This document shows positions 47,014 through 64,000 of a stretch of DNA of 64,000 nucleotides, piece by piece; within the stretch, counting starts at the first letter, position 1; every line of letters begins with the position of its first letter. The notes below the pieces were generated by a model. The model ran no database searches, had not been told where the DNA came from, and saw only the letters and a list, made by a program, of their open reading frames with translations. The position numbers were made by a program, and so were the translations under genes. The stretch is from Candidatus Eisenbacteria bacterium (lineage in GTDB: Bacteria > Eisenbacteria > RBG-16-71-46 > CAIMUX01 > VGJL01), in assembly GCA_016867495.1 (NCBI GenBank), contig VGJL01000003.1, forward strand, positions 1 to 64,000, read 5' to 3'.

Positions 47014-47057
47014 TCCCGCGCGGGACAAGCGGGACAGCGGTCCACCGGAGAAGCCGC

Positions 47058-48356: not shown

Positions 48357-48855
48357 CGGCCGCGGGAGTCGCGGTCGGGGCGCCGCCGGGAAGGGCGTCT
48401 CGATCGGCGTGCAGCGCCTGCGCCCCCTGGCCCTGCTGCCGGTGCGGATGTCGGCCGGCGCCTCGGGGTGGGATCTCTCCGCCTGCCTCGAATCCCCCCT
48501 GAGTCTCGAACCAGGACGCTGGGCCGTTGTACCAACAGGGATTGCCCTCGGGCTGCCGATGGGATATGAGGCGCAGGTGAGGGCGCGCAGCGGCCTGGCG
48601 GCCCGCTGCGGGATCGGCCTGTTGAACGCGCCCGGGACGGTCGACTCCGACTACAGGGGGGAGATCTGCGTGATCCTGATGAACTGGGGCCCGGAGAGAT
48701 TCGAGATCAAACACGGAGATCGCATCGCGCAGCTGGTCTTCATGAAGACGGCGCCCGTTCGTCTGGCATGGATCGGGCAGGTGGATGAGACCGATCGCGG
48801 GGCGGGCGGTTTCGGGCACACCGGCATCGGGCGCGGGACTCGGAAGAGCCCGTGA
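48334..48855 (+). CDS. dut: Deoxyuridine 5'-triphosphate nucleotidohydrolase
   Basis: dUTPase, which removes dUTP and makes dUMP for thymidylate. Family motifs are present in order: 'ASGWDLSA' (1), 'RARSGLA' (2), 'NAPGTVDSDYRGEI' (3), 'GDRIAQLV' (4) and 'DRGAGGFGHTG' (5). GTG 48334 gives 173 residues; GTG 48409 gives 148, nearer the family norm, so the start is uncertain and the first 25 Gly/Arg-rich residues are suspect. The stop overlaps the next start as GTGA. Confidence 0.93.
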   Translation: MKATGTSDGRGSRGRGAAGKGVSIGVQRLRPLALLPVRMSAGASGWDLSACLESPLSLEPGRWAVVPTGIALGLPMGYEAQVRARSGLAARCGIGLLNAPGTVDSDYRGEICVILMNWGPERFEIKHGDRIAQLVFMKTAPVRLAWIGQVDETDRGAGGFGHTGIGRGTRKSP

Positions 48856-49727
48856 TCCCGCATCTGGCCCTGTCCGTGGGGATGATCCTCCTGGCCGCCG
48901 CCCCCGGCGCGGGGGATGCCGGCGCGGCGGGAGATCCTCGCGAGAAGCTCTCGACCGACAGCCTCCTCATCCTCCTCGGCGACCAGCCGCGCTCGCCAGG
49001 CTTGAGAGACCTCGCGCAGAGGGACCCGCGTCGGTCCGCCCGGGAGGCAGCCGCCGGGCACGAGGCGATCCGGATCGGCGAGAAGCTCACCTTCTCGGTT
49101 CGCTACGGGATGATCAGGGCGGGAGAGGCGACCATGGAGGTCGCGGACACGACGAGCGCCTTCGGCCATCCCTGCTACCACGTCGTCTCCCGGGCGCGCA
49201 GCAACAGCGTCTTCGACACGATCTACAAGGTGCGGGACGTGGTCGAGACCTGGATGGACAGGGAGCGCCTCTTCAGCCGGCGGTTTCGGAAGTCGCTGCG
49301 CGAGGGGAGCTACCGCGCCACACAGGATGTGGAGATGGACCAGGAGAACGGATTCGCCCGCTACCAGGATGGCCGGGTGTTCGAGCTGGTCCGCGGCGCG
49401 CACGATGTCCTCTCCGGCTTCTACTACGTTCGCACGCTCGACCTCGAAGTCGGCCAGGAGATCTGGCTGGAGAGCCACGCCGATCGGAAGAACTACCCCC
49501 TGAAGGTGCTCGTCATGGGCCGGGAGAGGATCGACTCTCCCGTCGGGGAGTTCGATTGCCTCAAGCTCGAGCCGATGCTCCGCACCCCGGGGCTCTTCAA
49601 GCACGAGGGGAAGCTGACGATCTGGCTGACCGACGACGAGAGGAAGATGCCGATCCTCATGAAGAGCAAGGTGCCGGTCGTCGGATCGATCAGTGTCGTC
49701 CTCACGAGCTACGAGAGGCCCCGATGA
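48852..49727 (+). CDS. DUF3108-domain exported protein
   Basis: 291 residues from GTG 48852 (GTGA overlap with dut). A hydrophobic N-terminus (ALSVGMILLAAAPGAG) suggests export. Residues from about 75 onward match the DUF3108 pattern: 'GEKLTFSVRYGMIRAGEATMEV' (in parts), 'VVETWMDRERLFSRRFRK', 'LEPMLRTPGLFKHEGKLTIWLTDDERKMP' (in parts). The family is probably periplasmic beta-rich, with unknown function. Coupled to the following gene by ATGA. Confidence 0.8.
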   Translation: MIPHLALSVGMILLAAAPGAGDAGAAGDPREKLSTDSLLILLGDQPRSPGLRDLAQRDPRRSAREAAAGHEAIRIGEKLTFSVRYGMIRAGEATMEVADTTSAFGHPCYHVVSRARSNSVFDTIYKVRDVVETWMDRERLFSRRFRKSLREGSYRATQDVEMDQENGFARYQDGRVFELVRGAHDVLSGFYYVRTLDLEVGQEIWLESHADRKNYPLKVLVMGRERIDSPVGEFDCLKLEPMLRTPGLFKHEGKLTIWLTDDERKMPILMKSKVPVVGSISVVLTSYERPR

Positions 49728-50764
49728 GCCGCTATCCGGAGCTCGATCTGCGACGCGTGCGCTCTCACTCGATGAAGGAGCGGCGGAGCCTTGTCGCGGC
49801 GCCGGCCTTCTACCGTCCGCCCGCAGGATCGTCGAGCTTCCGGTCCTTCTGGGACTCCCTGCCCGAGATCCTCGGCGCGGCCGACCTCAAGGCAGTCGCT
49901 CGCGCGATGCTCGCCTCCCGCGAGAAGGGGCGCCCCGTCATCGCTCTGTGCGGGGCGCACGTGCTGAAGACCGGGCTGGGGCCGGGGCTGATCCGCCTGA
50001 TCGAGCGCGGCATCCTGACCGGCGTGGCCACCCATGGCGCGGGAGCGATCCACGACGCCGAGCTCGGCCTCTGGGGCCGGACCTCGGAGGATGTGGCCGA
50101 GGGGCTGCATCGAGGCCGATTCGGGATGGTCCGGGAGACCGCCGACTTCGTGAACGCGGCCGCCCGGCAGGCATGCGAACGGGGGGAAGGGATGGGCGAG
50201 GCGCTCGGGCGAGCGCTTCTCTCGGCCGATCGCGGCACGAGGCGGCGGAGCGTCCTGGCGGCGGCCTACGCCGCGGGCGCGCCGGCGACCGTCCATGTCG
50301 CCATCGGGACCGATGTCGTGCACCAGCATCCATCCTTCGACGGCGCGGCGGCGGGCGAGTCCTCGGCGAGGGACTTCCGCATCCTGGCGGCGCAGCTCTT
50401 CAGGATCCCAGGCGGGACGGTGCTCAATCTCGGCTCGGCGGTCCTGCTGCCGGAAGTCTTTCTCAAGGCCTTCTCGGTCGCTCGGAACCTGGGCGGCTCG
50501 GCCAGGGGAATGACCACTGCGACCTTCGATTTCATGAAGCAGTACCGGGCGATGGAGAACGTCGTCCGGCGGCCGACCCTGGGCGTGGGTCGCGGGTATT
50601 ATCTCGTCGGACATCACGAAATACTCTTGCCCCTGCTTTTCCATGCCTGTCTGACCGGCGCGGGTCGCGCGAGCGGTTCGCGCCGGCCGGCGAGAGACAA
50701 ACCCTTGAAGGGCAAGACTGTAACGGCCGATAGAACCCGCGACAAGGGTGATCGACGCCTCTGA
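49724..50764 (+). CDS. Conserved protein of unknown function
   Basis: 346 residues from ATG 49724. I recall similar proteins in other bacteria but cannot name an established function. Highly ordered, conserved-looking stretches are 'SFWDSLPEILGAADLKAV', 'VIALCGAHVLKTGLGPGLI' followed by 'THGAGAIHDAEL', 'GRTSEDVAEGLHRGRFGM', 'VHVAIGTDVVHQHPSFDGA', 'LNLGSAVLLPEVFLKAFS', and 'YYLVGHHEILLPLLFHA'. The His/Asp clusters could bind metal, and the Gly-rich part could bind a nucleotide. No signal peptide. The last 45 residues are basic and low complexity. It ends just before the promoter of the polysaccharide locus. Confidence 0.7.
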   Translation: MSRYPELDLRRVRSHSMKERRSLVAAPAFYRPPAGSSSFRSFWDSLPEILGAADLKAVARAMLASREKGRPVIALCGAHVLKTGLGPGLIRLIERGILTGVATHGAGAIHDAELGLWGRTSEDVAEGLHRGRFGMVRETADFVNAAARQACERGEGMGEALGRALLSADRGTRRRSVLAAAYAAGAPATVHVAIGTDVVHQHPSFDGAAAGESSARDFRILAAQLFRIPGGTVLNLGSAVLLPEVFLKAFSVARNLGGSARGMTTATFDFMKQYRAMENVVRRPTLGVGRGYYLVGHHEILLPLLFHACLTGAGRASGSRRPARDKPLKGKTVTADRTRDKGDRRL

Positions 50765-50769
50765 CGTCG

Positions 50770-50798
50770 TTGACGCTTGGAGCGGCGGGTGTTATGGT
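50770..50798 (+). promoter_or_regulatory. Putative promoter of the polysaccharide locus
   Basis: TTGACG (50770-50775), exactly 17 bp, TATGGT (50793-50798). It would give a leader of about 100 bases before ATG 50903. Confidence 0.6.
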
Positions 50799-50902
50799 GC
50801 CTAGTGCTCCAGCATGGAAGCGGCCGGCGCGCGTGGGGGGACCGGCGGCGATCCCAAAGATAGGAGAACGTGCGCGTTCGAGCGTCAGTTCCCAAGGAAG
50901 GG

Positions 50903-51664
50903 ATGGAGTTGCGACATCTCCTCGCGATGGTCCTCGCGGTCGCGGCCGCGGCACCTCTGCTTGCGGGCTGCGGCGGATCGAGGCCCCCGGCGCCTGTTCC
51001 GTATACTTCCCCCGCGCCCGAGACCTCCGCGATCGAGCCGGAGATCGATGCCTACAAGATCCTCGTCCACGACGAGCTGACCACTGTCGTGATCGGGCAC
51101 CCGGAGCTCTCCGGCCCGGCCAGGGTCCTTCCGGACGGAACGATGACGGTTCCCGGGGTCGGCTCCCTCTACGTCCTCGGCCTGTCGGTCGGGGAGGCGA
51201 CCGAGAAGGTCAACGAGGCGATCGCGACCCTCGTCCGTTTCCCCCAGGCGACCGTCAGCGTGACCAACTACGGGGAGAGGCGGATCTTCGTGATGGGAGA
51301 GGTCACGATCCCCGGCGATCACGCCTTCCATCGCGAGATGACGGCGATGGCGGCGATCGCCCAGGCGGGGGGATTCAACGATCAGGCCAAGCGGAGCAGC
51401 GTCGTGGTCCTGCGCCGGACGGGGGCAGCAGACGCGGCCGCCTTCCGCCTGGACGCGCGCTCGATCCTCGACGGGAAGGATCTCGCGCAGGACATCAAGC
51501 TCCGCCCCTTCGACATCGTCTACGTGCCGAAGACCTTCATCGCGAGCCTCGATGTGCTCGTCAACCAGTACTTCGCGCGACTGACTCCGCCCTTCACGCT
51601 GTATCTGGAAGGATGGAACTCCTTCCACGCGGACGACACGAACATCAGGTTCGTCGCGAGGTAG
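50903..51664 (+). CDS. Polysaccharide export lipoprotein (Wza/PES family)
   Basis: 253 residues from ATG 50903 (AAGGAAGGG upstream). Signal peptide with lipobox LLAGC near residue 25. The PES domain follows: 'YKILVHDELTTVVIG', 'VLPDGTMTVPGVGSLYVLGLS' (in parts), then an SLBB-like domain 'IFVMGEVTIPGDHAF' and 'AIAQAGGFND'. It forms the outer-membrane or periplasmic exit for exopolysaccharide. First gene of the locus that continues through the chain-length and ATPase genes. Confidence 0.9.
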   Translation: MELRHLLAMVLAVAAAAPLLAGCGGSRPPAPVPYTSPAPETSAIEPEIDAYKILVHDELTTVVIGHPELSGPARVLPDGTMTVPGVGSLYVLGLSVGEATEKVNEAIATLVRFPQATVSVTNYGERRIFVMGEVTIPGDHAFHREMTAMAAIAQAGGFNDQAKRSSVVVLRRTGAADAAAFRLDARSILDGKDLAQDIKLRPFDIVYVPKTFIASLDVLVNQYFARLTPPFTLYLEGWNSFHADDTNIRFVAR

Positions 51665-51674
51665 GGGAGGAGGC

Positions 51675-53042
51675 ATGAGCGAGGGACTCCGGCGGGAGAG
51701 GGAGACGACACTGCGCGACGTCGCGGCGATCATCTTCCGTCGCAAGGGGATCTTGCTGACGATCCTCTTCGCGGCTCTGGCCGGGATCGTCTGGGTCAAC
51801 GCCAGGACCCCGTCGACCTACCTCTCGACCGCGCGTCTTCTCATCAGCCGCGGCGAGCCGGAGAGCGTCTACTCGTCGCGCTACAGGGTCCTCTCGTGGG
51901 AGGAGGAGCTCAACTCCGAGATCGAAGTGATCGGCAGCGCCGCCCTGGGCGAGCGGACGCAGAAGATCCTCAAGCAGACCGGGGCGGTCGACTCCCGCGG
52001 CCTGCCGGTGCGGTTCGAGGCGACCCGTGTCTCCACGACGACGACGGGGAAATCGAGCGTCCTGATCGTCAGCTACAGGGGTGTCGATCCGGTCGAGGCG
52101 CGGGAGGCCCTTCGCGCCCTCACGCGCGCCTACATCGACTGGCGCGCCGAGGAGAAGTCCCTGCCTGTCGTCGACGGTTTCTTCCAGGAGGAGCTTGAGA
52201 GCCTCCGCGACCGCCTCGCGGAGTGGGAGCAGCGACGCGCCGATTTCATGACGGAAGAGGGGATCGTCAACATCTCGGGGGAGCGGGAGAGCCTGCTGCG
52301 CCAGAAGGAGGACATCTCCTTCCAGCTCTCCCAAGCGAGGGTGCGCCTCTCGGACTTCAACGCGCGACTCGAGGCGATCCGCGCCTTGATTCAGGACCGG
52401 CGGGCCGGCTCGGACATAGAGATCTCCGGCATCGGAGACGCCGAGTACAGCGACGACCAGCTGCTGCTCAACCTGCGCCGGGAGCTGACGACGCGGCGGG
52501 CCGAGTACCTGGAGAAGCGCGGCAGCTTCACCGACGAGCATCCGGAGGTCAAGGCGGCGAAGGAAGTCGTGACGGAGCTCGAGCTGGAGTTCGATCACGA
52601 GATGAGCAACTACGCCCGCCTCCTGGAGGCCAGGATCGACGTGGCGCAGGCGCGCGTCAACTCCCTGGTCGCCACCCTTCGGGCGCTCGATGAGCAGACC
52701 TACGGCCTGCCCGACAAGGAGGCGCGCCTCTCGCAGTACGACCGGATCATCGAGGCCCTGCGGAAAGACTACTCGACGATGGTCGAGAGGCAGGTCACCG
52801 CGAAGGCCGAGAATACGGGGAGACCGGAGTGGAAGGTCATCCTTCTGCAATCGGCCAGCGAGGGGGCCAAGGAGCGGACCCGCGACTATGTCCGCTTCAC
52901 GCTGATCCCCCTCTTCGGGCTCCTGATCGGGCTCGCCTTCGCCTTCATCATCGACGGACTCGATCACTCCTTGAAGGACCCGGCCGAGACGGAGCACCAC
53001 CTCGGCCTTCCGGTCCTCGGGTCGATCTCGAGGATCCGCTAG
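51675..53042 (+). CDS. Polysaccharide chain-length determinant (Wzz/GumC type)
   Basis: 455 residues. A first membrane helix near residues 27-45 ('GILLTILFAALAGIVWV'), a long periplasmic domain with strong coiled-coil (residues about 165-390, including 'EELESLRDRLAEWEQRR'), and a second membrane helix near 415-435 ('FTLIPLFGLLIGLAFAFII'), then a short cytoplasmic tail with 'DHSLKDPAETEHHLGLPVLG'. No fused kinase; the ATPase gene is separate downstream. It controls polymer length with the CpsD-like protein. Confidence 0.9.
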   Translation: MSEGLRRERETTLRDVAAIIFRRKGILLTILFAALAGIVWVNARTPSTYLSTARLLISRGEPESVYSSRYRVLSWEEELNSEIEVIGSAALGERTQKILKQTGAVDSRGLPVRFEATRVSTTTTGKSSVLIVSYRGVDPVEAREALRALTRAYIDWRAEEKSLPVVDGFFQEELESLRDRLAEWEQRRADFMTEEGIVNISGERESLLRQKEDISFQLSQARVRLSDFNARLEAIRALIQDRRAGSDIEISGIGDAEYSDDQLLLNLRRELTTRRAEYLEKRGSFTDEHPEVKAAKEVVTELELEFDHEMSNYARLLEARIDVAQARVNSLVATLRALDEQTYGLPDKEARLSQYDRIIEALRKDYSTMVERQVTAKAENTGRPEWKVILLQSASEGAKERTRDYVRFTLIPLFGLLIGLAFAFIIDGLDHSLKDPAETEHHLGLPVLGSISRIR

Positions 53043-53051
53043 AGGCACGCC

Positions 53052-53903
53052 ATGTACGAAGCGCACTTTGGATTCCGGGAGCCGCCCTTCCAGATCACGC
53101 CCGATCCACGTTTCCTGTTCCTGACGCGATCGCACCGAGACGCGCTGGCCTACCTCACGCGCGGGATCGCGGAGCGCAAGGGGATCCTGGTCCTGACCGG
53201 AGAGGTCGGCGTCGGCAAGACCCTGATGGTCCGCACCCTGATCGATCGTCTCCCGCCGGGGGTCGAGACCGCGGTCGTCATGAACGCGCGCCTGAGCTTC
53301 AAGCACCTGCTCTACCTGGCGCTGCTCGACTTCGGGATCCAGCCCAGGGCGCGGACCAAGGTCGAGCTGCTCCTGGCGCTGCAGGAGTTTCTCCTCAACC
53401 TCGGCCGCAGGGACGGCACGGCCCTCTTGATCGTGGACGAGGCGCAGACGCTGTCGACGAGGAGCCTCGAGGAGTTCCGGCTCCTCTCGAACCTGGAGAC
53501 GAGCACGCAGAAGATGTTCCAGATCCTCCTCGTGGGGCAGCCGGAGCTGAAGGCGACCCTGAGCCTTCACTCCCTGCGCCAGTTGAGGCAGCGGATTCCC
53601 GGCATCTGCGACGTATCCTCGCTTCCGCCCGACAGCGTCGCCGAGTACGTCGAGCACCGTCTGAACGTCGCCGGCGGAGGGCGTGTCAGCGGCCTCTTCA
53701 GCCCGGAGGCGCTGGAGCAGGTGGCCCGCTTCTCCAAGGGGATTCCCCGCCTGGTCAATCAGGCGTGCGATCGCTCCCTCATGGTCGGCTACGCATCCGG
53801 GGCCGATCGGATCGAACGGGAGCATGTCCAGGAGGCGGTGCGCGGTCTGGAAGACGGCTATCTCGCCCCGCACGCCGCGGCGATCGAAAGCATCGGGACC
53901 TAG
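53052..53903 (+). CDS. ExeA-like AAA ATPase of the polysaccharide locus
   Basis: 283 residues starting 'MYEAHFGFREPPFQITPDPRF', the hallmark of the ExeA/GspA-like ATPase family often found in exosortase-associated EPS loci. Walker A is GEVGVGKT (50-57), Walker B 'LLIVDEAQ', and sensor region 'VGQPEL' with 'QRIPGICDV'. Cytoplasmic. Its role in EPS loci is not firmly established. It lies between the Wzz-like and CpsD-like genes, 9 bases and 7 bases away. Confidence 0.9.
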   Translation: MYEAHFGFREPPFQITPDPRFLFLTRSHRDALAYLTRGIAERKGILVLTGEVGVGKTLMVRTLIDRLPPGVETAVVMNARLSFKHLLYLALLDFGIQPRARTKVELLLALQEFLLNLGRRDGTALLIVDEAQTLSTRSLEEFRLLSNLETSTQKMFQILLVGQPELKATLSLHSLRQLRQRIPGICDVSSLPPDSVAEYVEHRLNVAGGGRVSGLFSPEALEQVARFSKGIPRLVNQACDRSLMVGYASGADRIEREHVQEAVRGLEDGYLAPHAAAIESIGT

Positions 53904-53910
53904 GGGCGCG

Positions 53911-54687
53911 ATGAGCAACATCTTCGACGCGCTGAAGCGGAGAGAGAGACGAAGGGAGGCCGCCCCCGCGGAGGGCGCGATCCCGCTCGATCCTGTCGAC
54001 CGCGCAGAGGTCGAGCCCGCCGCCCCCCTCAATTTCAGGATCTCCCGCGAGCTGCAGCGGCTCAGGGATCGGGTCGATGTCGAACTCCCCAGGACGCGCC
54101 GCCGCGTTCTGGCCGTGGCGGCGGCCGTGGCGGGCGAGGGGGCATCGACCGTTTGCCTGCAGCTTGCCCGGAGCATGAGCACTGAGGGACAGGGGAAGGT
54201 CCTCCTGATCGATGCCGACCTCGATCGCGCGGCCCTCACCCTGACCGGCGCCATCCATGCGGCGGAGGGGCGCCCCGGGCTGCTCGATGTCCTCGCTGGA
54301 TCGGTCGAGCTCTCCAAGGCCGTGCTCTCGACGGACGAGCCGGACCTCCACTTCCTTCCCTCAGGGGGCGATGGCCTCTCGACGGCGGGACAGGGCAGGG
54401 AGAGGGCGACGATCCCGATCGAGGCGATGAACGACTTCCTGGATGACATGAGCAGGGTCTACCGGGTCGTCCTGGTCGATTGCCCGTCGATCCTCGAGCA
54501 TCCGGACTCGCCCGCCCTTGCGGGGCTGACCGACGGGGTTCTGCTCGTCGTCCGCGCGAACCGTACCCGGAGGGAGATCGTGCAGAGGGCGCTGCTCCTC
54601 ATGCGCGGGGCCCGCTGCCCCGTCCTGGGCATCGTCCTGAACCAGAGGCGCTACCCGATTCCAGAGTTCATCTACCGGCGGCTCTAG
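53911..54687 (+). CDS. CpsD/CapB-like P-loop protein lacking the Walker A lysine
   Basis: 258 residues starting 'MSNIFDALKRRERRRE', typical of BY-kinase-type partners in EPS loci. Where these proteins read GEGKST, this one reads GEGAST (75-80), with Ala78 in place of the Walker A Lys. Walker A' 'LLIDADLDR' and Walker B 'VVLVDCPS' are present. There is no Tyr cluster at the C-terminus ('FIYRRL' only). Kinase activity is doubtful; a regulatory or scaffold role towards the Wzz-like protein is more likely. Confidence 0.82.
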   Translation: MSNIFDALKRRERRREAAPAEGAIPLDPVDRAEVEPAAPLNFRISRELQRLRDRVDVELPRTRRRVLAVAAAVAGEGASTVCLQLARSMSTEGQGKVLLIDADLDRAALTLTGAIHAAEGRPGLLDVLAGSVELSKAVLSTDEPDLHFLPSGGDGLSTAGQGRERATIPIEAMNDFLDDMSRVYRVVLVDCPSILEHPDSPALAGLTDGVLLVVRANRTRREIVQRALLLMRGARCPVLGIVLNQRRYPIPEFIYRRL

Positions 54688-54712: not shown

Positions 54713-55858
54713 GTGGCCACGCCCGCGCCAGATCGGATTCGCATCGGATTCCCCGCGCCGTCCGTCTTGAGCCGCCAGGACTGGGTCGCCGAGCGGGCGG
54801 CCGAGGCGCTGCCGGTCATCACCCAGGTCCTCCTGGAAGAAGCGCGGGGACACGATCCCCTGCTTGTTTTCCTCGCGGGAAGCGGGGTCCACGGAGAGCT
54901 CTGCGGGATCGTCGATCCGACCGGCGCGAGGCGCTTTCTCTCCGATCTGGATGTCGGGCTGCTCACCGAGCGAAGGATTCCCAGGGATCTCCGCGAGAGG
55001 ATCGCGGCACGGCTCGTCCGCTCGAGCGCCGAAGGGCCGCAGCCGCGCGTCGGGTACTTCTGCCGCGAGGACAGGGGCAAGCAGTCTCCGACTCTGGGCC
55101 TGGTCGAGGCGGCGCGCTGCGGCTACGTCCTCTCAGGCGATCCGGGCCTGTTCGCCGCGCTCGAGATGCCGCTCCCGCGACAGATCCCCGCGTGGGAGGG
55201 CAGGCGGCTGCTCTGCAATCGAGCGATCGAGTGGTTGTCCGATTCAAGGCCCGAGAAGGGACGTCTCTCCGGCGTCTACGCCGCGGCCAAGCTTCACGCC
55301 GACGCCGCGGCCGTGATCCTGCTCGCGCGCGGCATCTACTCCGGCGGCGGCTACGACACGAGGACGCGCGCGCTCGGAGGGATCGATCTTGATGCCGGTC
55401 TCCGCTCTCGGATCGAGGCCTGGACGCGCTGGCGCCTTCTTCCCTCATGGTCCGGCGTCCCGGGGGGAGGGAGCCTCGATGAGCTCGCCGGCTCCGAGGC
55501 CCTCCGCCTGGATCTCGTCGAGACCCTGCGCAAGACGATGCAGGAGGCTGCGGGGTCCGACTCGGCCGGGCGCTTCTTGAACGGTTCGCCCGCGAGGGGC
55601 CGCGCCTGGGGGCGCGCCTGGAAGAGATGGCTCGCGCTGCACCCCCGGGCGCTTCTCGGCCTGCGGCCGGGCGCGCTGCGCCGGACGCCGCGCGTGCTCT
55701 TGTGGGAAGCGACCCTCCACTTCCTCCTTGGGCGCGATGAGGATGCCGCCGCCGTCATGGGCCGGCTCCTCGGAACCCGCGCGACGACCCGCCTGGCATC
55801 GGCTACCTTCATCTCAGGGATCGGGCGGGCCATGGACAGAGAGGGGGTCGATGGATGA
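54713..55858 (+). CDS. Nucleotidyltransferase-fold protein of unknown substrate
   Basis: 381 residues from GTG 54713. The N-terminal 100 residues contain a nucleotidyltransferase-like pattern: 'FLAGSGVHGE' (GS at 56-57, Gly61-Glu62) followed by 'SDLDVGLLTE' with Asp78 and Asp80. The gap between the two elements is longer than in minimal MNTs. The remaining 280 residues are helical, with 'AAKLHADAAAVILLARGIYSGG' (in parts), and have no recognised domain. Overlaps the phosphatase-superfamily gene by ATGA. Substrate unknown; the locus suggests sugar, lipid or polymer modification. Confidence 0.6.
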   Translation: MATPAPDRIRIGFPAPSVLSRQDWVAERAAEALPVITQVLLEEARGHDPLLVFLAGSGVHGELCGIVDPTGARRFLSDLDVGLLTERRIPRDLRERIAARLVRSSAEGPQPRVGYFCREDRGKQSPTLGLVEAARCGYVLSGDPGLFAALEMPLPRQIPAWEGRRLLCNRAIEWLSDSRPEKGRLSGVYAAAKLHADAAAVILLARGIYSGGGYDTRTRALGGIDLDAGLRSRIEAWTRWRLLPSWSGVPGGGSLDELAGSEALRLDLVETLRKTMQEAAGSDSAGRFLNGSPARGRAWGRAWKRWLALHPRALLGLRPGALRRTPRVLLWEATLHFLLGRDEDAAAVMGRLLGTRATTRLASATFISGIGRAMDREGVDG

Positions 55859-57027
55859 GCGGCGCGGAGCGAAGGGACCTGTCCCTCGTCTTCCTGATCG
55901 ACGCCCTGGGGCACGAGATCGTCGGCAAGGGAGGGTTCCTGGACGGGATGGTCCGCGGGGAGCGCCCCGTTGTCAGGACGATCCTCGGCTACTCCTCGGG
56001 CGCGCTGCCGAGTCTCTTCACGGGCCTGCCGCCGAATCGGCATGGACACTGGAGCATGTACAGGCGCGCGTCCGGCAAATCGGTCTTCAGCAAGTACTCT
56101 CGCTTGCTGAGGCTCGTGGGCCGGCTTCCGCGCGGGCAGTGGCGCGCCCGCAGGTGGCTCGCCCGCAGACTCCGTCGCGACGGCGTCACCGGCTACTTCT
56201 CTCTCTATGAGATTCCCCTGCGGATGCTCCCGGAGTTCGATCTCTGCGCGCGGAGGAACTACTACCTGCCGGGCGGGTTCGATGGGGCCCGAAGCCTCTT
56301 CGATCATCTGGCCCAGGCGGAAATCCGGCACAGAGTCTGGGACTGGACGGTCCCGGAAGAGCGGGCCTTCGATGAGATGCGGGAAGCCGCGGCGGCCGGG
56401 AAGGAGGACTTCCTCTTTCTCTACACGGGCAGCCTGGACGGGACGATGCACACGCACGGTCCTGCTTCCGCCGCCGCGAGGAGATGGCTCGAGGCCTGCG
56501 AGGGGAAGATCACGGCCATCGTGGACGCGGCGCGCGTCGCGGGACGCAGGACCCGGCTGCGCGTCTTCGGGGACCATGGGATGGCCCCCGTGCGAAGGCA
56601 TGTCGATCTGATGTCCCTGCTGGAACTGGCGCCCGTTCGCGAGCGGCGCGGGACGATGGCTTTCCTCGACAGCACGATGGCGCGCTTCTGGTTCGAGTCG
56701 GACGCCGCGCGGAGGGTTCTTGCGGAGCGCCTCTCCGCATGCGAAGGAGGGCGCTTCCTCTCCGATGAGGAGATGAGAGAGCACGGGATCGATTTTCCGG
56801 ATCGCTCTTACGGTGAAATGGTCTGGCTCTGCGATCCGGGCGCCGTGATCCTGCCGAGCCACATGGGATCCTCCCCGCTGCTCGGGATGCACGGATACGA
56901 TCCCGATGATCCCCACTCCCACACGACGCTTCTCGCCGACCCGCCGCCGGACCGGTTCCCCACCTCGATCCTCGAGATCGCGCCTCTTCTCCTCTCGGAG
57001 CTGGGCGTGAGGATGGAGGTCTCGTGA
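55855..57027 (+). CDS. Alkaline-phosphatase-superfamily hydrolase
   Basis: 390 residues from ATG 55855 (ATGA overlap). Metal-site and nucleophile positions of the alkaline phosphatase/phosphodiesterase superfamily are visible: Asp16 in 'FLIDALG', Ser47/Ser48 in 'GYSSGALPSLFTGLPPNRHG', Asp/His in 'SLDGTMHTHG', 'FGDHGM' and the late His in 'GMHGYDP'. No signal peptide or lipobox, so it is probably cytoplasmic. Sequence order is nearest to nucleotide pyrophosphatase/phosphodiesterase or phosphoethanolamine-type enzymes. Coupled to the flippase-like gene by ATGA. Confidence 0.8.
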   Translation: MSGAERRDLSLVFLIDALGHEIVGKGGFLDGMVRGERPVVRTILGYSSGALPSLFTGLPPNRHGHWSMYRRASGKSVFSKYSRLLRLVGRLPRGQWRARRWLARRLRRDGVTGYFSLYEIPLRMLPEFDLCARRNYYLPGGFDGARSLFDHLAQAEIRHRVWDWTVPEERAFDEMREAAAAGKEDFLFLYTGSLDGTMHTHGPASAAARRWLEACEGKITAIVDAARVAGRRTRLRVFGDHGMAPVRRHVDLMSLLELAPVRERRGTMAFLDSTMARFWFESDAARRVLAERLSACEGGRFLSDEEMREHGIDFPDRSYGEMVWLCDPGAVILPSHMGSSPLLGMHGYDPDDPHSHTTLLADPPPDRFPTSILEIAPLLLSELGVRMEVS

Positions 57028-58046
57028 AACGCCGCTGGGTCGTGATCCTGGGGATCGTCCTGAGCGCCCTCTTCCTCCACCTGGCGGCGCGCGGGGCGAA
57101 GCTCGATCGAATGATCGAGAGCCTCAAGCATGCCCAGTACATCTACATGATCCCATGCGCTCTGCTGACGCTCCTGGCCTTCTGGATCCGCGCGTTGCGG
57201 TGGAGGTTCCTCCTCCACGCCGTCGGGCCGATCCCGCAGGGGACTCTCTACTCCGCGACGATGATCGGCTTTCTGGCGAACAACATCCTCCCTGCGCGGC
57301 TGGGCGAGCTCGTCCGCGCGCACGTCGTGGGGACGCGGGCGGGGATCAGCCGCAGCGCGGCGCTGGCCAGCATCGTCGTCGAGAGGATCTTCGACCTGTT
57401 CACCCTCCTCGCCCTCTTTGCGGTGGGAGTTCTGGTCGCGCGCTTCCCCGGGGGACTGGGGACGGTCGCGCTGATCGGCCTCATGATCGGCCTCATCACG
57501 CTGATCCTCCTGATGATCTGGAACCGGCATCCGAAGTTCTTCCTCGAGCGTCTGCTGCGCCTGACTCCGGCCCGCCTCCGGGCAAGGGTCGAGCGCCTCG
57601 GCGTGGGCTTCCGCGAGGGGCTCGGAGTCTTCAACAAGACCTCCTACATCTTCGCCGTGGGGCTTCTCTCGATCGCGATGTGGGCCTCGATCGTCGTCGT
57701 GATCTGGCTCTGTTTCATCTCCCTCTCGATCGAGGTCCCGCAGCCCCAGGGATCCCTCGTGGCGCTCGTCGTCATCTCGCTCGTCACGATGGTGCCGAGC
57801 GCTCCCGGTTTCGTCGGCACCCTGCAGGGAGGGGGGACGGCCGCGCTTCTCGTCTTCGGCGTGCCCAAGGAGCTGGGCCTCACATTCTCGATCATCTACC
57901 ACGCGACGCAGTGGTTCCCCACGAACATCGTCGGGGCCTTCTATCTCCTGCGCGAGGGGCTGAGCCTCGGGCAGCTGAGCAGGCTTGCCGTGCAGCAGGA
58001 CGGGGCGGGAGCCGCCGGACGGAGGGGCGAGGGCGATGGCCCATAG
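57024..58046 (+). CDS. Lysylphosphatidylglycerol-synthase-type/AglD-like flippase-fold membrane protein
   Basis: 340 residues with about eight membrane helices. 'WIRALRWRFLL', 'GFLANNILPARLGELVRAHVVG' (in parts), 'SIVVERIFDLFTLL' and 'MVPSAPGFVGTLQGG' are the signatures of the UPF0104/AglD/MprF-N family, thought to flip lipids or take part in glycolipid assembly. The final 25 residues are hydrophilic. It overlaps the upstream phosphatase-superfamily gene by 4 and the ligase gene by 11 bases. Confidence 0.85.
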   Translation: MKRRWVVILGIVLSALFLHLAARGAKLDRMIESLKHAQYIYMIPCALLTLLAFWIRALRWRFLLHAVGPIPQGTLYSATMIGFLANNILPARLGELVRAHVVGTRAGISRSAALASIVVERIFDLFTLLALFAVGVLVARFPGGLGTVALIGLMIGLITLILLMIWNRHPKFFLERLLRLTPARLRARVERLGVGFREGLGVFNKTSYIFAVGLLSIAMWASIVVVIWLCFISLSIEVPQPQGSLVALVVISLVTMVPSAPGFVGTLQGGGTAALLVFGVPKELGLTFSIIYHATQWFPTNIVGAFYLLREGLSLGQLSRLAVQQDGAGAAGRRGEGDGP

Positions 58047-59568
58047 ATCCTCGGCCCCCCCCTATCCGACTCGGACGATTCGCGACTGGATCGTGAGCCC
58101 CTGGATCTACATCGTCCTGGCGGCCGTCCTGGGGCTTCTGGCCGCGCAGATCGTCGCGGGTCAGATCGCGGCTCGCTGGGTGAAGGCGCTGATCGGGCTG
58201 ATCTTCGTCTTCGCCCTCTTCAAGCTCCCCCTCTATGGGGTCGTGGCCCTCTTCCTCGTCGCCTTCCCCTTTCCGACCTACATCTTCCTCGGAAACACCA
58301 ACATCATCTTCGTCCTCTTCATGCTGATCGCCTGGGCGATCAAGGTGCGGCTGGGAAAGGAGCCCGCCCCCCCCAAGACCTACCTCGACTACGCGGCCTG
58401 GGCCTACATCGGGGTCCACTTGATCTCGTTCCTGAATGTCGACACTTCGTCGAGCCTGACGAACGGGATCCTGCAGGTCGAGTTCCTCGCGGGGGCGGTC
58501 GGCCTCTACTTCCTCGTCTCCAAGCTCCTGAGGACCGAACGCCAGCTGAAGATCGCCTTCCTCGCCCTCGCCTTCACGTCCCTCCTGGTCTCGATCACGG
58601 GCGTGATGGAGTACTTTCTGCCGGCGGTCAAACTGATCCCCGACTGGTTCATCGCCGCGGGCCCCGCGGGGAAGCGGTTCGAGGAGGGAGGGCGGGTCGG
58701 CGGGATCTTCCGCGCCCACTCGCTGCTCGCCGACTTCTGCGCGATCCTCTTCACGCTCCAGGTCTATCTCTACCTCCGCTCGCGCAACAGGATCGCGAAA
58801 CTCTTCTTCCTCCTGTTGATGGCGGCGAGCGTCTTCCAGATCTTCCTGACCGCGAACCGCGGGGGATTCCTGATCTGGATCTTCGCGATCCTCTATCTCC
58901 TCTGGCTCGGACGGGGGGCGATCACGCTCCGCAAGGTGGTCATCGCGCTTCCCCTCCTCCTCGCGGGCGGCGTGCTCGTCGAGATCGTGACGGCCCGCTA
59001 CGGGAGGATCATCACCCTCTTCTGGCGGCTGGCCACGACGCAGCTCGAGCGCGGAGTTCCGGAGACGCGCGTGCATGTCTGGCGGCGTGTCCTGGAGGAG
59101 ATCCCGCAGCACGTCTGGATCGGGCACGGGCCGTTCTACGACCTGGCCGGGGGCTTCGGACACTTCGGGAGGCAGTGGCCCCACAGCGCCTACCTGATGT
59201 ACCTCTGGACGACGGGCGTGCTGGGGCTCGCGGTCTTCCTCTGGATCCTCGGGAAGACGATCGCGAAGAGCTACCCGGGCGGGAAGCTCGACCTGAAGAA
59301 GATCTCCTTCGCCCACGGCGCCATGGTGGTGGCGCACGTGCAGGTCATCCAGTTCGCCATGGCGCAGATCCGAGACGAGCACCAGCGGGGCAATGTCTAT
59401 CCTTACCTGATGTGGGCGCTCTTCGCCCTCGCGGTCGCGGCGAGGAGGATCAAGGAGGAGCAGGAGAGGAGCGCCGCGGCCTTGCCGGGCGAGAGGGACG
59501 GGGAAGGTCCGGCCCGGGCCCGAGACCGCGAGGGCGAAGGGATGGCGCTTCCTTCCCGCGGGCCGTGA
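58036..59568 (+). CDS. O-antigen ligase family membrane protein
   Basis: 510 residues from ATG 58036 (GGAGGGGCGAGGG upstream). About eleven membrane helices. The Wzy/WaaL-type periplasmic loop has 'TANRGGFLIWI' (the conserved SRGG-like segment), 'ETRVHVWRRVLEEIPQHVWIGHGPF' (in parts) with Arg/His/Gly, and 'HSAYLMYLWTTGVLGL'. It either polymerises or ligates undecaprenyl-linked glycan in the periplasm. The C-terminal 40 residues are charged low complexity. The stop overlaps the next start as GTGA. Confidence 0.85.
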   Translation: MAHRSSAPPYPTRTIRDWIVSPWIYIVLAAVLGLLAAQIVAGQIAARWVKALIGLIFVFALFKLPLYGVVALFLVAFPFPTYIFLGNTNIIFVLFMLIAWAIKVRLGKEPAPPKTYLDYAAWAYIGVHLISFLNVDTSSSLTNGILQVEFLAGAVGLYFLVSKLLRTERQLKIAFLALAFTSLLVSITGVMEYFLPAVKLIPDWFIAAGPAGKRFEEGGRVGGIFRAHSLLADFCAILFTLQVYLYLRSRNRIAKLFFLLLMAASVFQIFLTANRGGFLIWIFAILYLLWLGRGAITLRKVVIALPLLLAGGVLVEIVTARYGRIITLFWRLATTQLERGVPETRVHVWRRVLEEIPQHVWIGHGPFYDLAGGFGHFGRQWPHSAYLMYLWTTGVLGLAVFLWILGKTIAKSYPGGKLDLKKISFAHGAMVVAHVQVIQFAMAQIRDEHQRGNVYPYLMWALFALAVAARRIKEEQERSAAALPGERDGEGPARARDREGEGMALPSRGP

Positions 59569-61610
59569 TCCCCGAGATCGAGAGCGGATCCGTCGTCCCT
59601 CCTCCGCGCGGCAGACGAAGTCCGGATGCGGCCTACATTCTCGCGGCCGCGCTCTGCCTGCTGCTGGCGCTGCCTATCGCGATGCCGGCGGCGCTTGCCG
59701 GCGCGGGTCTCGCGGTCGCCCTCGCCTATCTTCCGGGAGCGCTGGCGGCGGGGCGGCTCGCGCCGGGATGGAGTCGCGCGGGACGGTTCCTACTCGCTCT
59801 CGGGCTCTCCGTCTTCCTCGCGGGGGGCGCGGGCTCGCTTCTGCTGATCGCGGGCCTCGACGGCGATCGGGCGGCGAGAGTCCTCCTGGTCCTCCTTGCG
59901 CTGCTTTCGATCAGCGCCGGCATTCGCAGGGCCGCCTCGCCGGCCCGCGAGGCGGCGGAGGGGAGCGTCTGGGCCTGCGCCCTGATCTGGGCCGCGGCGA
60001 TGGGGATCTTCCTCCTGTCGAATCCGGCGCTTCTCTCGCGCTCGGACGGAGCGTTCCACGCGGCGGTCACGCTCCAGATCGCGAACAGGGGGGTTCCCCC
60101 GGAGGATCCCTTCTTCGCCGGGCTCCGCCTTCTCTACTTCTGGGGATCGCACGCGTGGGCCGGGCTCTGGATCGCGCTCGACCCCCGAATCCCCGTATGG
60201 TTCCCGCTCGTCGTGATGAACCTCGCGGGCGCGATCGCCTGCATGCTCGGTCTGGGTCTCCTCGCGCAGCGACTCGGAGCGCGGAGCGCCGGGGTCCGCG
60301 CGAGCGCTCTGGCGGGCGCCCTGGGCTACGCGCCCTTCGCCTGGGCGTGGATCGCGGCGCGCGCCGCCTCCGGAGAGGTCACGGGCCTTGCGGAGGTCGA
60401 GCGGCTGGTCCACGGAGGGATCGCCTCGGCACTCGGCGTCATGGGGACGGGGCTGCTGCATCTCTCGATGGTCTTCTTCGGCGGGAAGTTCCTGGTCCTC
60501 ACCCCATTCGGCCTGGGGCTCGGGATCTTCGGCCTCTTCCTGGTCTCGATGCTCGACTTCCTCGAGAAGCCGACGCTCCGGGGGGGCGTCGTCCTGTCCG
60601 CGGCGACCGCATCGGCCCTCTTCACCCACACGGTGGTCGGGTTCTGCTGCCTGGGTCTCGCGGGCGGATGGTGGCTCGCGGGACTCATGCGATTCCTGCT
60701 CCGGCGGTCTCCGGTCTTCCGCAGGGCCCGGCTGTGGCTCCCGATCGCCGCGGGATCGGCCCTCGTTCCCCTCGCGCCCTATCTCGCCGCGATCCTCTCC
60801 GGGAAGCGAGGCGGGCCGGCGGCGGGACTCTCGCCTCAAGCGATCATGACGCTCGTCTGGGGAGGCGCCCTGCTGGTCCCCATCGCCGTCGTCTGGCTCT
60901 GGCGCGGGCGGGAGAGGATCGCGGCGGCGAGGGAGATCCTCGTCCTCTCCCTGCTCCTCGCGATCCCGGCGCTCGCGATCGATCCCTCGGACAACAACCA
61001 GAGCAAGTTCTTCAATCTCCTCTTCTTCATGCTCGCCGCGCCGGCGGGGATCGCCTGGAGCGGCCTCGCGCTCCGCCTGCGCGGGGCGAGGAGAGCCGCG
61101 CTGGCGGCTCTTCTCTGCTGCGCGACCCTTCCCACAGCGGGGCTTTCCCTTTGGGCCTATGCGTCGGAGCGCGGGGACCGGGCGGAATGGTGGCGCTGGC
61201 CGACCGCGCTCGAGTCCGAGGCTGTCGCGTGGGCGGGGAGGGAGACCTCGGCCGACGCGATCTTCATCGATGAGGGGGAGGCGCGGGATCTGCCTGTGCG
61301 AGCGGGGAGAAGCACCCTCTGGGGCGGGCGCGCATGGGCGAAAAAGTGGGGGTATCCCGAGCCGGCCCTGCAGGCGAGGGAAGGCGCGGTCCGGGGGGTC
61401 GCGCGGCGAAACGGGCCCTCGCCCGAGGCCGCCGCCTTCCTCTCTGGGTTGGACAGGGATGTCGTGCTCCTTGCAAGGCGACGTTCGAGCGGACTTGACC
61501 TCTCGCTCTGGGATCGCCTTCCCGAAAGGCCCGATCTCTTCGAGCCGATCTATGGGAACGAGGATGCCGTCCTCTATCGATGGAGGGCGCGGCGTCCCAC
61601 GGAAGACTGA
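59565..61610 (+). CDS. Large multispanning membrane protein, GT-C-like
   Basis: 681 residues from GTG 59565 (GTGA overlap). Around twelve to fourteen membrane helices, then a hydrophilic C-terminal 130 residues, probably periplasmic. The early loop 'SRSDGAFHAAVTLQIANRGV' followed by 'PPEDPFFAGLRLLYFWGSHAW' recalls the acidic first loop of GT-C glycosyltransferases and DUF2298-type proteins. No family can be assigned with confidence. Its place between an O-antigen ligase and sugar transferase suggests a glycosyltransferase or polymer-handling function. Confidence 0.6.
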   Translation: MIPEIESGSVVPPPRGRRSPDAAYILAAALCLLLALPIAMPAALAGAGLAVALAYLPGALAAGRLAPGWSRAGRFLLALGLSVFLAGGAGSLLLIAGLDGDRAARVLLVLLALLSISAGIRRAASPAREAAEGSVWACALIWAAAMGIFLLSNPALLSRSDGAFHAAVTLQIANRGVPPEDPFFAGLRLLYFWGSHAWAGLWIALDPRIPVWFPLVVMNLAGAIACMLGLGLLAQRLGARSAGVRASALAGALGYAPFAWAWIAARAASGEVTGLAEVERLVHGGIASALGVMGTGLLHLSMVFFGGKFLVLTPFGLGLGIFGLFLVSMLDFLEKPTLRGGVVLSAATASALFTHTVVGFCCLGLAGGWWLAGLMRFLLRRSPVFRRARLWLPIAAGSALVPLAPYLAAILSGKRGGPAAGLSPQAIMTLVWGGALLVPIAVVWLWRGRERIAAAREILVLSLLLAIPALAIDPSDNNQSKFFNLLFFMLAAPAGIAWSGLALRLRGARRAALAALLCCATLPTAGLSLWAYASERGDRAEWWRWPTALESEAVAWAGRETSADAIFIDEGEARDLPVRAGRSTLWGGRAWAKKWGYPEPALQAREGAVRGVARRNGPSPEAAAFLSGLDRDVVLLARRRSSGLDLSLWDRLPERPDLFEPIYGNEDAVLYRWRARRPTED

Positions 61611-61942
61611 GGGCGGGCGACACCGATCACGGGTCCGGGTTCCGAAGGTCGCATCCCCTCGCGGCAGGGCAGGCGTCTGGATGCGTACCGGGGACAGGAG
61701 GGCCCCGGGATGGCCGGCTTGACCGGCGCGTCCGGACAGCGCTATAATTGCGCTGTCCAAACAGACATCGGCCCCTGACGAGAGGAGGTACGGCCAAGAC
61801 ACCTTGCTAGCGGGATCGACCAGGCCCGAGGCCTGCGAGACTGCATCATCCTGTTGCTATTCAACATCATGGCGACCTGCTCCAGGTGGTCGCGTGCGGT
61901 CCGTCGGTGGAGGTCCCGTCGCACGGCAAGGAGTGTTCATCT
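61611..61942 (+). other. 332-base gap: promoter, palindrome and long leader
   Basis: There is no convincing gene here. The first 108 bases hold nothing recognisable. A near-consensus promoter with a palindrome over its -10 box follows (61719-61758), then a leader of about 190 bases with GAGAGGAGG at 61782-61790 and a small hairpin CAGGCC-CGA-GGCCTG (61821-61835). Short frames such as 61804-62010 have Shine-Dalgarno-like sequence upstream but no protein-like composition. Confidence 0.6.
61719..61758 (+). promoter_or_regulatory. Near-consensus promoter with a perfect palindrome centred on the -10 box
   Basis: TTGACC (61719-61724), 18-bp spacer, TATAAT (61743-61748). The -10 sits exactly in the loop of a perfect dyad: GGACAGCGC (61734-61742), 7 bases, GCGCTGTCC (61750-61758). 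A dimeric repressor bound here would block RNA polymerase directly. Confidence 0.7.
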
Positions 61943-62743
61943 GTGCTTCGCACGTCGTCGTTTGGACGGCCCAGCAATCCGGTCCGGGGTCCGGAGGCCA
62001 ACGGGGCTGACGAGAAGGCTGCTGCCCCCCCACCCGCCGAGACCACAGAGCCGCAGAAGCCGGCGCAAGAGCGCGCAGGCGATGTCGCGCCCGGTCCGGA
62101 TCCTGCGCTGACCGAGATCCCGATCGAGGCCGATCGCACCCTCTATCTTCGCGTGGGGAAGAGGGCGCTCGATCTCGCGATCGGCTGCTTCGCCGGACTC
62201 CTCCTGCTTCCTCTCTTCCTCGTCCTTGCCGCCGCGATCAAGCTGGATACTCCCGGTCCCGTGCTCTACCGCTCGGTTCGGGTGGGACGCGCGGGCAGGC
62301 CATTCACCTTCTACAAGCTCCGCTCGATGATCCATGGGGCCGAGCAGTACAGGCATCGCCTGAGCCACCTGAACGAGGTGACGGGACCTGTCTTCAAGAT
62401 CGCAAAGGATCCCCGCATCACGAAGATCGGGCGGTTCCTCCGGCGGACCAGCCTGGACGAGCTTCCCCAGATCCTCAACGTCATCAAAGGGGACATGAGC
62501 CTCGTCGGCCCGCGCCCGCCCATCCCCGATGAGGTGAGGCAGTACGAGCCTTGGCAGCTGCGCCGCCTTTCGGTGCGCCCCGGGATCACCTGCCTCTGGC
62601 AGATCAGCGGACGGAGCCGGCTTGGGTTCGATGAGTGGATGCGTCTGGACATGGAGTATATCGATCGGCGCGGATTCTCCCTCGACCTGAAGATCCTGTT
62701 CCAAACCCTCCCCGCGGTATTGAAGGGCGAAGGCGCCTACTGA
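61943..62743 (+). CDS. Polyprenyl-phosphate sugar-1-phosphate transferase (WbaP/WcaJ catalytic type)
   Basis: 266 residues from GTG 61943, which has AAGGAG nine bases upstream; GTG 61886 would give 285. The first 75 or so residues are Pro/Ala/Glu-rich and disordered. One membrane segment follows ('LAIGCFAGLLLLPLFLVLAAA'), then the catalytic domain: 'GPVLYRSVRVGRAGRPFTFYKLRSM' (in parts), 'FLRRTSLDELPQILNVIKGDMSLVGPRPP' (in parts), 'RPGITCLWQISGRS' and 'LDMEYIDR'. It transfers a sugar phosphate to undecaprenyl phosphate, the first step of a repeat unit. The multispanning N-terminal domain of long WcaJ-type proteins is absent. Confidence 0.92.
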   Translation: MLRTSSFGRPSNPVRGPEANGADEKAAAPPPAETTEPQKPAQERAGDVAPGPDPALTEIPIEADRTLYLRVGKRALDLAIGCFAGLLLLPLFLVLAAAIKLDTPGPVLYRSVRVGRAGRPFTFYKLRSMIHGAEQYRHRLSHLNEVTGPVFKIAKDPRITKIGRFLRRTSLDELPQILNVIKGDMSLVGPRPPIPDEVRQYEPWQLRRLSVRPGITCLWQISGRSRLGFDEWMRLDMEYIDRRGFSLDLKILFQTLPAVLKGEGAY

Positions 62744-62813: not shown

Positions 62814-64000
62814 ATGATGGAAGGTCGCACGATCGGGTTCTCGACGAGGGGCGCCGTGCTCGCGGCCACCCTCTTGGGTCTGCTCCTGCGCCTGTGGGGC
62901 CTCGGGAGGCAATCGATCTGGGTCGATGAGCACATCACGCTCAAGTTCGCCGGGTTCGAGCGGCCGCTGACGGCCGATGCGCTCATCGTGAATCTGCAGG
63001 GTCCCTTCCACGCGCTGCTTCTGAACCTCTTCTGCGGCCTGTTCGGATGGGGGGAGTTCGCCGCGCGCCTGCCGCAAGCGATCGTCTCGGCGGCCACGGT
63101 CCCGCTTCTCTACGCGGTCGCGCGACGGCCCTTCGGAGAGAGGACGGCCCTGCTCGGCGCGTTCCTCCTCGCGGTCAATCCGTTCCACATCTGGTACGCG
63201 CAGGAGATCCGCAACTACGCCCTGATGATCTTCTTCGTGGTCCTCTCGCTGGGCGCCGTCCTTCGGTTGGAGGCGGCGGGGCGGCCGCGGAGTTCGATCC
63301 TTCCCCTGGCAGCGGTGTGGACGGGGGGGCTCTTGAGCAACCTCGGCTTCTTCTTTCAGATGGTCGCATCCGGCCTCTGGGGACTGATCCGGTTCCGCCG
63401 GCGGGGCCCCGCGCTCGCCGCCCTCTTCCTGGCGGGGGGGTTCACGCTGATCGCGACACTTCCGTGGACCGCGCAGTTCTATCAGAAGAAGGTCTCGCCC
63501 TCGCACCTGCTCCGCCTGGAGGCCGTGCCCAGCTCCGAGAGGGTGCGCGGCGACGCGAGCGCGCCGCTCGCGGGGATCCCCTACGCGATCTACTCCTACG
63601 CGGTCGGCTTCAGTTTTGGTCCCTCGATCCGCGAGCTGCGCGAGGAGGCTTCCTTCGTGACCGTTCGCCGGCACGCGCCCGCCGTCGCGGCGACGATCTT
63701 GCTCTTCGGGGCGCCGCTCGCGATGGGGTTGATTCGGTGGGCGCGGGGAGACGCGGCGCGCAAGCTCTGGCTCCTGGCCCTTCTCATGCCGCTGCTCCTC
63801 GCCTTCCTGGCCGCGACCCGGAACGTGAAGGTGTTCAATCCCCGCTACGCGTCCGCGGCCCTGCCCGCCTTCGTCATCCTCATCGCCGAAGGCCTCTTCG
63901 CCCTCGGCATCCGGAGGGCGGGAGGGGCCTTCCTGGCCTCGATACTCCTGGTGAGCGGCATCAGCATCGCCCAGCTTCGGACCGACAGGCGCTACTGGAA
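62814..64000 (+). CDS. GT39/PMT-type membrane glycosyltransferase (3' truncated by window edge)
   Basis: Open from ATG 62814 (a second ATG follows directly) to the window edge, about 395 residues with no stop. It has many membrane helices. The first periplasmic loop has the acidic pair in 'SIWVDEHITL'; 'NPFHIWYAQEIRNYAL' and 'NPRYASAALPAFVILI' are typical of ArnT/PMT-like GT-C enzymes that use polyprenyl-phosphate sugars. It belongs to the polysaccharide locus, 70 bases after the sugar transferase. The 3' end is outside the window. Confidence 0.85.
   Translation, partial: MMEGRTIGFSTRGAVLAATLLGLLLRLWGLGRQSIWVDEHITLKFAGFERPLTADALIVNLQGPFHALLLNLFCGLFGWGEFAARLPQAIVSAATVPLLYAVARRPFGERTALLGAFLLAVNPFHIWYAQEIRNYALMIFFVVLSLGAVLRLEAAGRPRSSILPLAAVWTGGLLSNLGFFFQMVASGLWGLIRFRRRGPALAALFLAGGFTLIATLPWTAQFYQKKVSPSHLLRLEAVPSSERVRGDASAPLAGIPYAIYSYAVGFSFGPSIRELREEASFVTVRRHAPAVAATILLFGAPLAMGLIRWARGDAARKLWLLALLMPLLLAFLAATRNVKVFNPRYASAALPAFVILIAEGLFALGIRRAGGAFLASILLVSGISIAQLRTDRRYW

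Follow-up and report, generated by a model that had tools for sequence, protein, structure and literature searches.

Do three genes that overlap end to start serve a single process, or does only part of the set belong together? The question is raised by a locus of Candidatus Eisenbacteria, in the stretch of 64,000 nucleotides that we analysed (contig VGJL01000003.1, positions 1 to 64,000; hereafter the window). The stretch comes from an assembly of 3.35 Mb in 373 contigs (G000), presumably an Eisenbacteria-like metagenome-assembled genome. The genes encode a nucleotidyltransferase-fold protein (NT), an ENPP-like phosphodiesterase (PDE), and a flippase-like membrane protein (FLP). A sequence-only reading had suggested that they serve one process, possibly one in which a head group is activated, then transferred or hydrolysed, and the lipid product is flipped, or else a nucleotide-linked modification of the polymer. 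The three open reading frames were confirmed on the same strand (381, 390, and 340 aa; NT and FLP start with GTG), with the following features:

54713..55858, + strand: NT, two-domain nucleotidyltransferase-fold protein of an unnamed family (AlphaFold2 [AF2] model, Foldseek)
54944..54952, + strand: Asp78-Leu79-Asp80 of NT, DxD metal site (D78 in 50/54 and D80 in 51/54 homologues)
55046..55048, + strand: Arg112 of NT, in the place of the third catalytic carboxylate (47/54 homologues have Asp/Glu; by analogy with Glu-87 of AadA, PMC6065190)
55855..55858, + strand: ATGA overlap of NT and PDE (sequence)
55855..57027, + strand: PDE, ENPP-like type I phosphodiesterase, predicted cytoplasmic (PF01663, AF2 model)
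55993..55995, + strand: Ser47 of PDE, invariant predicted nucleophile (67-sequence alignment)
57024..57027, + strand: GTGA overlap of PDE and FLP (sequence)
57024..58046, + strand: FLP, flippase-like membrane protein, a neighbour outside the conserved module (PF03706/TIGR00374)

ATGA joins had been claimed for all three genes; the first overlap is indeed ATGA, but the second is GTGA. The overlaps also continue downstream, where FLP shares 11 nt (58036-58046) with the gene of a Wzy_C protein, which in turn shares a GTGA (59565-59568) with the gene of a 681-aa protein. Since they run on through at least five genes, the trio is a cut from a longer coupled run.

The first two genes nevertheless stand out from this run: NT and PDE make up a conserved two-enzyme core module of exopolysaccharide (EPS) systems of the Wzx/Wzy type over many phyla, a conclusion we hold with high confidence. 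Of the 47 genomes of the phylum, 29 have NT and 29 have PDE; 28 have the two together and 17 have neither, i.e., 28 of the 30 genomes with either gene have both. In the two discordant genomes (G042, G012), the gene that is present lies at a contig end. A Fisher test of the association gives 1e-10, for species that are not independent. The order of the genes is not due to chance, because further families of the phylum share it, with a few bases between NT and PDE.

To look across phyla, we collected relatives of PDE by a profile search of genome contigs with the PDE alignment and used the best 80 of 419; a single-sequence search of genome contigs with NT gave no match, and gene orders rest on profile matches in stop-to-stop frames. 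NT is within the fetched stretch in 47 of the 80 PDE loci and directly upstream of PDE in 30, at distances of -25 to +31 nt. This adjacency occurs in at least six phyla (Eisenbacteria, Cloacimonadota, Latescibacterota, Krumholzibacteria, Kiritimatiellales, Omnitrophota, and others), and NT is sometimes downstream of PDE, behind a GT2 gene. When NT is missing from the PDE stretch, it is usually encoded elsewhere in the genome (28 of 32), mostly in single copy; in the 20 such regions that we examined, NT is mostly encoded among EPS genes (WecG, phosphoglycosyl transferase [PGT], nucleoside diphosphate [NDP]-sugar enzyme, GT2, Wzc, Wza). The order of Thiohalocapsa (170 genomes) has both genes in 12 genomes, PDE only in 2, NT only in 6, and neither in 150; Thiohalocapsa halophila is an example of a cultured non-pathogen with both. 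The NT and PDE trees are congruent (Mantel r of 0.757, against 0.168 for the best of 2000 permutations; 23 of 39 splits shared). Such congruence shows co-inheritance and not, by itself, interaction.

The third gene behaves differently. FLP has the expected features of an AglD/MprF-N-like membrane protein: it is full-length, polytopic, and stand-alone, and matches PF03706 (1.4e-53) and TIGR00374 (1.2e-27). PF03706 is the sole domain found in its 340 aa, which thus lack the C-terminal aminoacyl-phosphatidylglycerol synthase domain of MprF. Among the 80 PDE loci of many phyla, the FLP profile matches only those of Eisenbacteria, with the caveat that a divergent PF03706 protein could escape it. 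Only in the window's order does FLP adjoin PDE; there, each of the nine genomes with PDE has the arrangement NT-PDE-FLP. A different family of the class has PDE-Wzx-GT2-FLP, and a third family has Wzx and no FLP. Two genomes with NT and PDE give no FLP match (G015, G021), whereas about 13 of the 17 genomes without NT and PDE give a strong one. We thus rejected FLP as a part of the conserved module; it is a lineage-specific neighbour. Conserved co-occurrence of the three families, which the sequence-only reading had itself put forward as a test, is therefore strong for NT and PDE and fails for the flippase; likewise, tight coupling as a sign of a shared process holds for the first two genes and not for the three as one unit. 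That the third gene flips a head-group product finds no comparative support. The position of FLP might suggest that it replaces Wzx in the slot after PDE, but this is no more than suggestive, because Wzx-like proteins are encoded on other contigs of G000. The same proteins rule out FLP as the only flippase of the genome.

For the PF03706 family, the predicted role is the flipping of lipids or of saccharides linked to lipids (PMC5898192). Like other PF03706/COG0392 flippases (the MprF N-domain, the AglD C-domain, GpgF), FLP is encoded in a glycan operon. The nearest published analogue is GpgF of the gpgSDF operon, which makes glucosaminyl-phosphatidylglycerol and where the flippase role of GpgF is still unverified (PMC12713373). 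Unlike in GpgF-type systems, FLP lies in an EPS cluster with Wzy and not in a phospholipid-glycosylation operon.

What, then, could the two enzymes of the module be? The AF2 model of NT, computed from an alignment of 54 sequences (pLDDT 89.8, pTM 0.87), has as best PDB matches in Foldseek AAD(9), AadA, ANT, and kanamycin nucleotidyltransferase, followed by MntA, in agreement with the nucleotidyltransferase fold initially assigned to the first protein. The GG/GS motif, the DxD, and the core fold are all present, and the model identifies NT as a predicted nucleotidyltransferase of two domains that comes closest to the AadA/AAD(9) adenylyltransferases. The likeness to these aminoglycoside-modifying enzymes is one of fold only. 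In NT, as in AadA, AAD(9), and ANT(4'), a helical C-terminal domain comes after the GS...DxD core; these enzymes are its top Foldseek matches (6xz0, 6sxj, 5lpa) and give weak profile matches. When the profiles of NT and AadA were compared (hhalign), the alignment was confined to the GS...DxD core; the AadA sequence used is a 100% match to plasmid genes annotated as ANT(3''). NT differs from these enzymes: it is about 120 aa longer, its TM-scores (on the target) reach only about 0.50-0.58 at 14-16% identity, it carries a conserved NR...K signature, it is encoded in an EPS locus rather than in a resistance cassette, and, in the window, it misses the third carboxylate. NT matches no Pfam or NCBIfam family: the gathering cut-off of NTP_transf_2 (PF01909) is not reached, with no match for the window protein and weak ones for 5 of the 54 homologues (best E 0.0026).

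Other relatives are more remote. GlnD/GlnE and the HEPN-MNT enzymes (MntA), which modify proteins, belong to the same superfamily; a few NT members weakly match GlnD, and MntA is in the Foldseek list. Unlike them, NT has neither HD/ACT domains nor a HEPN partner, nor a match to a defence family. The LicD/FKRP phosphotransferases of capsules also have the nucleotidyltransferase fold at a surface-polymer locus (CpsC, PMC11666461), but none is in the top Foldseek list and none of the 54 NT members matches LicD (PF04991), on which ground a LicD-like identity was discarded. A defence system was set aside for lack of defence-family matches, and a phage origin was rejected.

Across the 54 sequences, G56, E62, D78, D80, G142, N169, R170, and K193 are invariant or nearly so. 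The search for an MNT active site in the 381-residue model recovered the DxD and GS core, whereas the third carboxylate is replaced by Arg112. This acid is also gone in L013, L015, L017, L018, and two NT members of Omnitrophota; the replacements in the window and its relatives (L011, L013, L015, L017, L018) are Arg, Thr, Gly, or Ser. Sister lineages (L110, L172, L183) retain an Asp, and the acid was probably lost several times, as read from the tree. The third carboxylate is a trait of active nucleotidyltransferases and not part of the definition of the fold, and some enzymes of the MNT family are defined by GS...DxD alone. The window protein still has E62, the DxD, R170, and K193. In AadA, an Arg and a Lys of the C-terminal domain hold the ATP phosphates, and the change E87Q abolishes adenylation, ATP being hydrolysed instead (PMC6065190). 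As a separate observation, a PRK/uridine-kinase-family protein that could phosphorylate the NT substrate is encoded near NT at several loci (L104, L124, L130, L148, L228-L230, L237).

The assignment of PDE is simpler. It matches PF01663 with an E-value of 1.6e-14 (54.7 bits, cut-off of 23), as do 67 of 67 members. The model (pLDDT 94.7) is closest to Xac NPP (7n1s, E 3.6e-19, TM 0.68) and to ENPP4, 5, 6, and 7 in the PDB (Foldseek). Seven residues corresponding to the two-metal ligands and the Ser nucleophile (D16, S47, D195, H199, D240, H241, H346) are invariant in the 67 sequences, as are residues of a family signature around DSTMaRFW. Hydropathy reveals no hydrophobic N-terminus or export signal, in line with the earlier description of an alkaline-phosphatase-superfamily hydrolase that is not exported. 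PDE is thus probably a cytoplasmic ENPP-like phosphodiesterase, its diesterase function being predicted from fold and residues. It has the fold and metal-ligand set of ENPP and Xac NPP; unlike ENPPs, it is predicted to be cytoplasmic, has Ser where they have Thr, and shows its own invariant motifs, GYF-LY and DSTMaRFW. Neither Pfam (2025) nor NCBIfam (June 2026) names the subfamily, which can be assigned at the level of PF01663 only, and we found no plasmid copy of PDE.

The surroundings of the module confirm the surface-glycan locus, since the genes sit inside an EPS cluster with Wza, a polysaccharide co-polymerase (PCP), a kinase, and Wzy:

50903..51664, + strand: Wza-type polysaccharide export lipoprotein (Poly_export, SLBB)
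51675..53042, + strand: PCP/chain-length determinant (TIGR03007-like, below cut-off)
53052..53903, + strand: XrtA-associated ATPase-like protein (TIGR03015, 269 bits, under the cut-off of 324.5)
53911..54687, + strand: bacterial tyrosine kinase (BY-kinase)-like ATPase (TIGR03018-like)
58036..59568, + strand: Wzy_C/O-antigen-ligase-family polymerase (Pfam)
59565..61610, + strand: 681-aa hydrophobic protein without Pfam match, GTGA-coupled to the Wzy gene
61886..62743, + strand: phosphoglycosyl transferase (Bac_transf), exact start uncertain (Pfam/NCBIfam)
62814..64000, + strand: PMT_2-type glycosyltransferase, continuing past the window end

Glycosyltransferases and a ManC-like gene follow on the same contig. 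The locus thus has PGT, Wzy, PCP, and Wza, by which a Wzx/Wzy-dependent cluster is recognised; no Wzx was found in the window locus or in the flanks examined at the G002, G004, and G005 loci. Elsewhere, the genome encodes an exosortase (PF09721, E 1.1e-64; G000:C1:32069-32815, L251), in keeping with the window's genes for an XrtA-type ATPase and a chain-length determinant. The genes upstream of the EPS cluster (44917-51664) keep the order pnp, M16 peptidase, dUTPase, DUF3108 protein, c19, wza across the phylum (L013, L015, L018, L161, L170), single genes being absent in some loci. Two other proteins of the window are worth recording: one of 2086 aa (30293-36553) with SprA_N (PF14349, 1.5e-24), i.e., a SprA-like gliding/type 9 secretion translocon protein, and one of 882 aa (25009-27657, - strand) that matches a Rax2-type beta-propeller (PF12768, 2.7e-29), which is unusual for a bacterium.

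The explanation we favour, with a probability of roughly 40%, is that the module is a cytoplasmic writer/eraser pair acting on one EPS target, with FLP working separately. NT and PDE would share an EPS-related target in the cytoplasm, either a precursor (a sugar or a lipid-linked intermediate) or a regulatory protein. As an AadA/AAD(9)-like enzyme, NT would use an NTP to attach a nucleoside monophosphate to a hydroxyl group. PDE, ENPP-like with two metals and a Ser nucleophile, would cut the phosphodiester made by NT, and writer and eraser would together gate EPS assembly. FLP would have a separate task, moving a lipid-linked glycan to the other side of the membrane, and would fill the slot that Wzx has elsewhere. 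In the window lineage, NT without its third carboxylate may only bind or hydrolyse nucleotide. The opposing chemistry of the two enzymes is in itself a tentative proposal. Several points weigh against this explanation. Co-occurrence could reflect common membership of one EPS system rather than a common substrate, the genes compared genome-wide as controls being Wzx and FLP within the phylum. R170/K193 are assumed to correspond to R192/K205 of AadA, as hhalign covered only the GS...DxD core. The most serious point is the loss of the third acid, the equivalent of the E87Q change that abolishes adenylation in AadA (PMC6065190): next to an intact eraser, this is odd for an active writer and is the main argument against a simple writer/eraser pair in this organism. 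A related possibility is that, in the window lineage, NT has degenerated into a subunit that binds nucleotide without transferring it and that regulates PDE. The replaced carboxylate and the ATP hydrolysis by AadA E87Q (PMC6065190) speak for it, but the retention of E62, DxD, R170, and K193, the Asp of the sister lineages, and the existence of enzymes defined by GS...DxD alone make it unlikely. It is compatible with the writer/eraser explanation.

The two enzymes could instead act one after the other in biosynthesis, NT making a nucleotide-activated or nucleotidylated intermediate and PDE using that bond to add or trim a substituent that a phosphodiester links to the EPS repeat unit or to its lipid carrier. 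Both are encoded among genes for glycosyltransferases, the phosphoglycosyl transferase, Wzx, and Wzy; small molecules are the substrates of the enzymes nearest to NT in structure; PDE closely matches ENPP6 and ENPP7, whose substrates are phosphocholine esters; and the PRK/uridine-kinase-family protein (PF00485) near NT in several phyla fits a phosphorylate-then-activate chemistry. We regard this as a serious but somewhat unlikely alternative, because NT and PDE are kept where the sugar-tailoring neighbours change from lineage to lineage, a pattern more in keeping with a core step than with a decoration, and because there is no LicD or CDP-alcohol family match. It is distinctly unlikely that NT and PDE are independent parts of one conserved EPS system with no common substrate. 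Their loci do share other EPS genes, and in Gammaproteobacteria they lie 10-30 kb apart or on separate contigs, but direct adjacency with overlapping or nearly overlapping ends recurs in the phyla listed above, and the pair is kept when other parts of the cluster change (regulators, WecG, and the NDP-sugar gene being present or absent). The single three-gene pathway proposed at the outset could draw on the coupled overlaps and on the constant gene order within the window's order. It has become very improbable, given the genomes with the pair and no FLP, those with FLP and no pair, the family of the class with FLP behind Wzx and a GT2 gene, and the coupling of the fourth gene to FLP, which is about equally tight.

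The sequence-only reading knew of no named pathway with this set, and this stands: neither Pfam (2025) nor NCBIfam (June 2026) has a name for the NT family, and a literature search, with most subscription journals outside its reach, found no description of the NT and PDE pair. The parts themselves are known folds. EPS clusters are usually explained by sugar transferases, a flippase, a polymerase, and export. It is unlikely, though worth considering, that a reversible nucleotidylation switch is a core EPS control across many phyla, together with a takeover of the Wzx slot by PF03706 in one lineage. A nucleotidyl/phosphodiester module that persists over many phyla points to an overlooked core step of EPS assembly.

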